Shown here: in pieces, positions 27,117-30,601 of the stretch
How the letters are laid out: the number at the start of each line of letters is the position of its first letter
How positions within the stretch are numbered: the first letter of the stretch is position 1
Assembly (NCBI GenBank): GCA_022072125.1
Contig: JAJVIH010000033.1
Span: 1-42,196 of the forward strand
Reading direction: 5' to 3'
Source: Myxococcota bacterium
GTDB taxonomy: Bacteria > Myxococcota > JAJVIH01
Length of the DNA stretch: 42,196 nucleotides
Made by a program: the position numbers and the translations under genes
Notes under the pieces: model-generated
Told to the model about the DNA's origin: nothing
Database searches by the model: none
What the model saw: the letters and a program-made list of their open reading frames with translations, nothing else

Positions 27117-27193
27117 TGGCGCGCCCGCAAGGATTCGAACCTTGGGCCTTCGGATTCGTAGTCCGACGCTCTATCCAACTGAGCTACGGGCGC
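27117..27193 (-). tRNA. tRNA-Arg (anticodon ACG), with encoded CCA
   Basis: On the minus strand the acceptor stem is GCGCCCG paired with CGGGCGC. The D arm contains GCTCAGTTGGATAGAGC. The anticodon stem TCGGA/TCCGA closes the loop CTACGAA, giving anticodon ACG (read as ICG after A34 deamination). The T arm CAAGG-TTCGAAT-CCTTG is complete. Discriminator G and a genomically encoded CCA follow (27120-27117). An A in the variable part of the D loop agrees with the A20 identity element of arginine tRNAs. Confidence 0.97.
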
Positions 27194-29793: not shown

Positions 29794-29895
29794 GAAAAAA
29801 TGCATGGAGCCCCTGTCCCGGGGGGATGGGTACGGGAGGGAAACCAAGAGGCTCCATGCAACAGGAAAAAAACCGCGTGGGATGTCTCCCACATA
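29794..29895 (-). ncRNA. Candidate ~100-nt small RNA or attenuator leader
   Basis: Reading the minus strand from about 29895, a 5' hairpin GTGGGA-GACA-TCCCAC (29892-29877) is followed by a T-rich single strand. Then comes an 11-bp perfect hairpin TGCATGGAGCC/GGCTCCATGCA (arms 29860-29850 and 29811-29801) with a 38-base C-rich loop containing CCCTCCC and CCCATCCCCCC. Six T's follow directly (29800-29795), making an intrinsic terminator. A sigma70 promoter with perfect TATAAT lies upstream. CCTGT just before the big stem can pair with ACAGG in its loop, a possible pseudoknot. C-rich loops are typical of sRNAs that pair with Shine-Dalgarno sequences. It could instead be an attenuator for the beta-helix gene downstream. 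Confidence 0.55.
29795..29860 (-). terminator. Intrinsic terminator ending the small RNA
   Basis: An 11-bp perfect stem with extra internal pairing in its loop (TCCCG with CGGGA) is followed by T6 on the minus strand. No T-run follows on the plus strand, so it works in one direction only. It also separates the sulfite-oxidase-fold gene from the beta-helix gene. Confidence 0.7.
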
Positions 29896-29901
29896 TGAAG
29901 G

Positions 29902-29929
29902 ATTATAACGAATGATTATCGGTAATCAA
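29902..29929 (-). promoter_or_regulatory. Promoter of the candidate small RNA
   Basis: On the minus strand TTGATT (29929-29924) and a perfect TATAAT (29907-29902) are 16 bases apart. The spacer overlaps an inverted repeat GATTA-CCGA-TAATC (29925-29912). The start would be near 29895, exactly where the first RNA hairpin begins. Confidence 0.6.
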
Positions 29930-29932
29930 GTG

Positions 29933-30601
29933 CTATTTTGAATCAGGTGTGAAATTGTCGTCTGAATTTCCGCTTTCCTGCCAGGAGTAGCGTTCCTCTT
30001 TCCAGGGATCGGCGTGGTTGTGATAACCGCGCACTTCCCAGAAACCGCGCCGGTCCTGGGCCATGAACTCCACCCCAGAGACCCATTTGGCGCTTTTCCA
30101 GGCGTAGAGTTTGGGGACCACCAGCCGCATGGGTCCGCCGTGCTCCGGCTCCAGGGCCTGGCCATTGTGCATGGTGGCGAACAGGGCATCGGCGTCCGCA
30201 AACTCATGCAGGGGCAGATTGGTGGTATAACCGCCGTAACAGTGAATGGTGACATGCTTTACTTCGCTCGCCGGGCGGGTCAGATCCAGGATGGTTTTCA
30301 CCGCCACTCCCTTCCAATGGTTGTCGAGTTTGGACCAGCGCGTCACACAGTGGAAATCGGATACATCCTCGAATGGCTTGAGGGCGTTGAAATCGCTCCA
30401 CGACAAGGACAATGGATTCGCCACCAGACCAGACGTGGTGAAGCGCCAAGTATCGGGATTAAACTCCGGGATATCCCCCTCGTGCAGCACCGGCCATTTG
30501 GTTGTCAAAACCTGTCCGGGCGGAAGCCGGTCCAGAATGGCGCCTTCATAGCCGCGCTCAGCGGCGGTTTTCCTCAATCCCTTCGATCCCTTGAGATTCA
30601 T
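29933..30601 (-). CDS. Sulfite-oxidase-fold molybdopterin oxidoreductase
   Basis: A 222-residue molybdopterin-binding protein of the sulfite oxidase/MsrP fold. The molybdenum-ligand Cys lies in DFHCVTRWSKLDNHW (C85). Further family segments are ILDLTRPASEVKHVTIHCYGGYTTNLPL, EHGGPMRLVVPKLYAWKSAKWVSGVEFM and FWEVRGYHNHADPWKEERY. There is no Tat signal peptide, so unlike MsrP it is probably cytoplasmic, as in YuiH-type proteins. No heme or membrane partner gene is adjacent, so its electron partner and substrate are unknown. The ATG at 30601 follows GGAGAAAGG, and a promoter with TATACT lies just upstream. Confidence 0.88.
   Translation of the reverse strand: MNLKGSKGLRKTAAERGYEGAILDRLPPGQVLTTKWPVLHEGDIPEFNPDTWRFTTSGLVANPLSLSWSDFNALKPFEDVSDFHCVTRWSKLDNHWKGVAVKTILDLTRPASEVKHVTIHCYGGYTTNLPLHEFADADALFATMHNGQALEPEHGGPMRLVVPKLYAWKSAKWVSGVEFMAQDRRGFWEVRGYHNHADPWKEERYSWQESGNSDDNFTPDSK

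Follow-up and report, generated by a model that had tools for sequence, protein, structure and literature searches.

The intergenic region and its features

The window, the whole stretch of 42,196 nt of DNA that was analysed, is contig C35 of a draft genome of 3.97 Mb in 78 contigs from an uncultured Myxococcota-like bacterium, and related proteins derive from 'Deltaproteobacteria' and Myxococcales metagenome-assembled genomes. On its minus strand, an MsrP/sulfite-oxidase-like oxidoreductase gene is followed by a gene for a left-handed beta-helix (hexapeptide) protein; the two are co-directional and unrelated, and 180 nt of intergenic DNA lie between them. This region holds a promoter-like pair of hexamers, a hairpin at the predicted 5' end, and a terminator-like hairpin followed by T6 (Table 1), each where the original prediction had placed it. 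The candidate RNA region is non-coding, as had also been claimed, with the 40-codon open frame from 29894 scoring negative for coding. The window has a GC content of 63%, compared with 34% in a 65-nt stretch surrounding the putative promoter. No Shine-Dalgarno match was seen at the start of the hexapeptide gene (29752).

Table 1. Features of the oxidoreductase-hexapeptide interval, in window coordinates and in order along the minus strand
Feature	Position	Strand	Remark
Upstream gene, molybdopterin oxidoreductase domain (PF00174), MsrP/sulfite-oxidase-like	29933..30601	-	family match
-35 hexamer TTGATT	29924..29929	-	begins 4 nt past oxidoreductase stop codon
-10 hexamer TATAAT	29902..29907	-	16-nt spacer from TTGATT
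Predicted transcription start, A/T, 6-8 nt past -10	29894..29896	-	putative
Hairpin I, 5', 6-bp core GUGGGA/UCCCAC, loop GACA, -10.4 kcal/mol	29876..29893	-	fold
U7 single-stranded stretch, 3 nt (CGG) past hairpin I	29866..29872	-	sequence
Hairpin II, intrinsic-terminator-like, 14-bp stem, 32-nt loop, -29.8 kcal/mol	29801..29860	-	fold
UUGGUUUCCCUCCCGU, 5' half of C-rich loop and last stem base	29832..29847	-	complementary to translation-initiation sites
ACCCAUCCCCCC, 3' half of loop	29820..29831	-	no preference for translation starts
T6 tract, predicted 3' end	29795..29800	-	sequence
Downstream gene, left-handed beta-helix (hexapeptide) protein, 437 aa	28439..29752	-	family match

Several familiar identities were considered for the element. 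The hairpin was searched for as a transposon or repeat and occurs as a single copy in the genome, and Rfam covariance models placed no family above threshold at the candidate. A 6S RNA was rejected because the best 6S match of this genome sits elsewhere, at G000:C61. Within the window, the Rfam tRNA model finds a tRNA gene at 27120-27193 on the minus strand (73 bits).

Promoter and terminator against the genomic background

Background statistics were computed on 2.74 of the 3.97 Mb, with genes called by a simple codon-usage gene model. When the 180-nt intergenic region was shuffled, a promoter match as good as TTGATT-16-TATAAT arose in 0.7% of cases; when its AT-rich 65 nt were shuffled, the figure was 1.8%. 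Across the 2.74 Mb, 77 promoter matches reach at least 10/12. Intergenic DNA holds 81% of them, the random expectation being 13%, and for 74% a co-directional gene begins no more than 200 nt downstream, compared with 8% at random. The distance between such a promoter and its gene is usually some tens of nucleotides, whereas 149 nt separate the end of the -10 hexamer from the hexapeptide gene here. We also considered a Fur/Zur-type operator in the promoter spacer, where GATAATCATT fits part of a Fur box, and rejected it: about 7 of 19 positions are mismatched, and 1241 sites do equally well. A perfect Fur box (19/19) was seen elsewhere in the genome, at G000:C1:264845, where it overlies a promoter-like site that precedes a gene by 20 nt.

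The predicted RNA of about 100 nt folds at -42.6 kcal/mol, compared with -29.4 +/- 3.4 kcal/mol for shuffled sequences (z -3.9), and none of 200 shuffles folded as well. The terminator hairpin proposed originally is present with its T6 tract but differs in size, having 14 contiguous pairs (13 Watson-Crick and one U-G) around 32 nt rather than 11 bp around 38. The internal UCCCG/CGGGA stem expected to compete does appear in the predicted fold, where it masks part of the C-rich motif of the loop. The suggested pseudoknot fares less well, for although CCUGU and ACAGG match base for base, ACAGG overlaps the upper stem of hairpin II, and the structure is sterically implausible because two zero-length connecting loops would have to span helices of 11 bp and 5 bp.

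Sequence counts indicate that intrinsic terminators are in use in this genome, because T-tailed stems clearly exceed an A-tailed control, most of all for short loops: 68 T-tailed short-loop stems of at least 11 bp were found in the 2.74 Mb, against 9 with an A-tail. At the 14-bp level, two long-loop stems carry a T-tail and none an A-tail, and hairpin II is the joint longest contiguous stem among the long-loop terminator-like cases. The second 14-bp stem, with a pyrimidine-rich loop of 31 nt and a T-rich tail, lies at the start of a DUF1826 gene (G000:C1:121856-121914, minus strand) and may fall inside an in-frame extension of that gene. A shorter stem of 11 bp, with a 43-nt loop containing CCCCCC and then T7, lies in the gap downstream of ftsZ (G000:C4:31239-31303, minus strand) and is possibly a further RNA element. 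We rejected a family uniting hairpin II with these two long-loop C-rich terminators, as their loop similarity is no better than that of shuffled sequences (p 0.16 for C1:121856 and 0.09 for C4:31239).

Promoter and terminator were then taken together. Of the intergenic promoter-like sites, 166 leave 45 nt or more before the next gene, and in five of these a terminator lies between promoter and gene. The present locus accounts for two of the five, as overlapping promoter calls, and the other three have a promoter of only 9/12 or a stem of only 7 bp. This is the sole locus in the 2.74 Mb that combines a promoter of at least 10/12 with a terminator stem of at least 10 bp before the next gene. A promoter followed by a strong terminator with no gene in between is thus unusual in this genome, which supports a real short transcription unit, and the genome-wide statistics support the earlier proposal that promoter, hairpins and T tract belong to one unit.

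The most likely reading, which we hold tentatively and at somewhat below an even chance, is a small RNA some 100 nt long with its own promoter, which lies within the oxidoreductase gene's 3' untranslated region, shares the terminator of that gene, and would act by loop pairing without Hfq. From these elements we infer that RNA polymerase would start near 29895 on the minus strand, that the 5' hairpin would shield the end of the RNA, and that transcription would stop at hairpin II and T6, which probably also terminate the upstream oxidoreductase mRNA. The likeliest pairing domain would be the long loop of this hairpin, with its 5' half covering Shine-Dalgarno regions of target mRNAs.

Conservation and alternative readings

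The main rival, which we regard as a real possibility while leaning against it, is an ordinary terminator: hairpin II, perhaps together with hairpin I, would only end the oxidoreductase mRNA, the promoter would be coincidental or would weakly drive the downstream gene by read-through, and the loop would have no function. A position between two co-directional, unrelated genes fits this reading, intrinsic terminators are common in this genome, and about 2% of shuffles of AT-rich DNA produce a 10/12 promoter by chance. The conservation search also speaks for it, as it found none among 192 other genomes of the phylum. However, a 32-nt loop on a 14-bp stem is extreme for this genome, roughly three-quarters of the promoters in this class stand immediately before a gene, and hairpin I is placed exactly at the predicted start.

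The missing homologues are the largest weakness of any functional claim for the locus. A single-sequence covariance model found only itself in 193 genomes (this one and the 192 others), the closest genomes compared being those of the same phylum. A DNA search in relatives and protein-anchored searches for syntenic loci recovered no homologous intergenic region, and a distant BLAST search in plasmids and phages gave no match. For well-known small RNAs, conservation usually extends at least across a genus or family, and the result counts against a small RNA.

The same promoter could alternatively serve the hexapeptide gene, with hairpin II as a premature terminator and a signal deciding read-through. 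The promoter is aimed at that gene, and the promoter scan listed no other site between hairpin II and the start codon. Attenuation of the beta-helix gene, which had been raised originally, was nevertheless not supported. Step-wise folds of growing transcripts gave only a weak 6-bp alternative and no strong antiterminator; six loci in relatives, namely those checked that have the hexapeptide gene directly behind another gene, show no leader; and the clearest paralogue in this genome lacks a terminator leader. In those six loci the preceding gene is, as we take it from sequence motifs judged by eye, PPi-dependent phosphofructokinase-like. For these reasons (no strong antiterminator, gapless loci in relatives, and a paralogue with no terminator leader) attenuation is less likely, and we consider it improbable overall; a protein-dependent form is possible, since attenuators of that type can do without a visible antiterminator (PMC2965389). 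The hexapeptide gene is single at this locus and has paralogues elsewhere in the genome, while several relatives carry a tandem pair of such genes behind another gene.

A leaderless mRNA for a 40-residue peptide can be set aside as highly improbable, for although the frame is open from the ATG at 29894, 8 nt past the -10 hexamer, to about 29772, its codon-usage score is -8.2 (non-coding), it crosses the terminator, and its start codon sits at the base of hairpin I.

The C-rich loop and known small RNAs

If the locus does encode a small RNA, as we tentatively favour, the loop of hairpin II, which contains UUUCCCUCCC, is the part whose sequence suggests a function. The original prediction held that both of its motifs could pair with Shine-Dalgarno sequences, and we tested this against 1,951 predicted translation starts. 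The 5' half of the loop has 8-base complements at 40 starts, whereas coding controls give 4 and upstream controls 11; an equally good result came from 5 of 500 shuffles (about p 0.01, for a half picked after looking). The signal centres around -10 and covers GAAACCA, GAGGGAA and CGGGAGG contexts. For the whole loop, 13 of 200 shuffles equal the real sequence in complements. The 3' half (CCCATCCCCCC) showed no preference for translation starts among exact complements, so this part of the proposal was not borne out; nor did duplex energies of the loop against the 1,951 starts show a preference over shuffled loops. Pairing with the start regions of the two neighbouring genes is weak, at ranks 1815 and 1576 of 1951. 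Pairing of the 5' half with ribosome-binding sites thus has modest support from sequence complementarity, and only modest because that half was chosen afterwards and CCUCC alone is anti-Shine-Dalgarno.

Bacteria without Hfq are expected to depend on structured RNAs with C-rich loops; Helicobacter is not known to possess it. The present genome, which is 95.8% complete, has no match to Hfq (PF17209), and a trans-acting small RNA dependent on Hfq was rejected for a host in which that protein is not detectable. To our knowledge, little has been charted of Myxococcota small RNAs apart from Pxr, and we know of no characterised regulatory RNA in this lineage. By analogy, an undetected Hfq would fit the known RNAs with C-rich loops that work in the absence of Hfq or can dispense with it (PMC3771888; RepG, PMC8295292), and the candidate could work as they do.

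RepG of Helicobacter pylori offers a close comparison, since its C/U-rich terminator loop pairs with a G-repeat in an mRNA leader (PMC8295292). Like RepG, the candidate is predicted to be a stem-loop RNA from its own intergenic unit that uses a C/U-rich terminator loop as its pairing domain. RepG, however, shows conservation among strains and in related species, and its targets are proven (PMC8295292), and no sequence relation between the two is shown. The 115-nt sX13 RNA of Xanthomonas pairs through C-rich loops with G-rich motifs near translation starts and is independent of Hfq (PMC3771888), and the candidate resembles it in its predicted length and C-rich loop, may likewise pair with G-rich sites near translation starts, and comes from a host with no Hfq detected. 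In contrast to sX13, which has three stem-loops with short apical C4/C5 loops and is conserved downstream of polA (PMC3771888), the candidate has one long C-rich loop and a different locus. Pxr comes from Myxococcus xanthus, a myxobacterium without hfq (PMC5684412), and the candidate resembles it in its Myxococcota-like host with no Hfq detected and in its predicted stem-loop architecture. Pxr differs in having three stem-loops, an adjacent PxrR/PxrK two-component system and homologues known only in Cystobacterineae (PMC5684412). The candidate has two hairpins and no PxrR/PxrK neighbours, and identity with Pxr was rejected on hairpin count and the Pfam names of the neighbours.

A further likeness is found in the Cuckoo / CcsR RNAs. 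These carry an anti-Shine-Dalgarno motif of the CCUCC type in two hairpin loops, and the candidate, too, has a hairpin exposing such a motif. Identity with Cuckoo was rejected, as only one candidate loop has the motif (the loop of hairpin I is GACA) and the neighbours are not DUF1127 genes, which Cuckoo RNAs adjoin (PMC10253847). The locus is best described as a plausible candidate small RNA of a known kind, assigned to no family.

A more specific proposal goes beyond the general small-RNA reading: a lineage-specific, Hfq-independent anti-Shine-Dalgarno RNA from a deep branch that is Myxococcota-like. It would pair through its own terminator, by way of a loop that is unusually long, and its targets would be many mRNAs with a GAGGGAAACC-type start context, such as those of the genes at C20:58476 and C1:126392. 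We think this rather unlikely. If the RNA is real, it would add another independent instance of an Hfq-free C-rich-loop design, the evidence so far being a single locus from a single draft genome of metagenome type.

Read on the plus strand, the loop (window positions 29819-29840) carries a G-quadruplex motif (GGGGGGATGGGTACGGGAGGG), a motif that occurs in this genome at a density of about 0.08 per kb.
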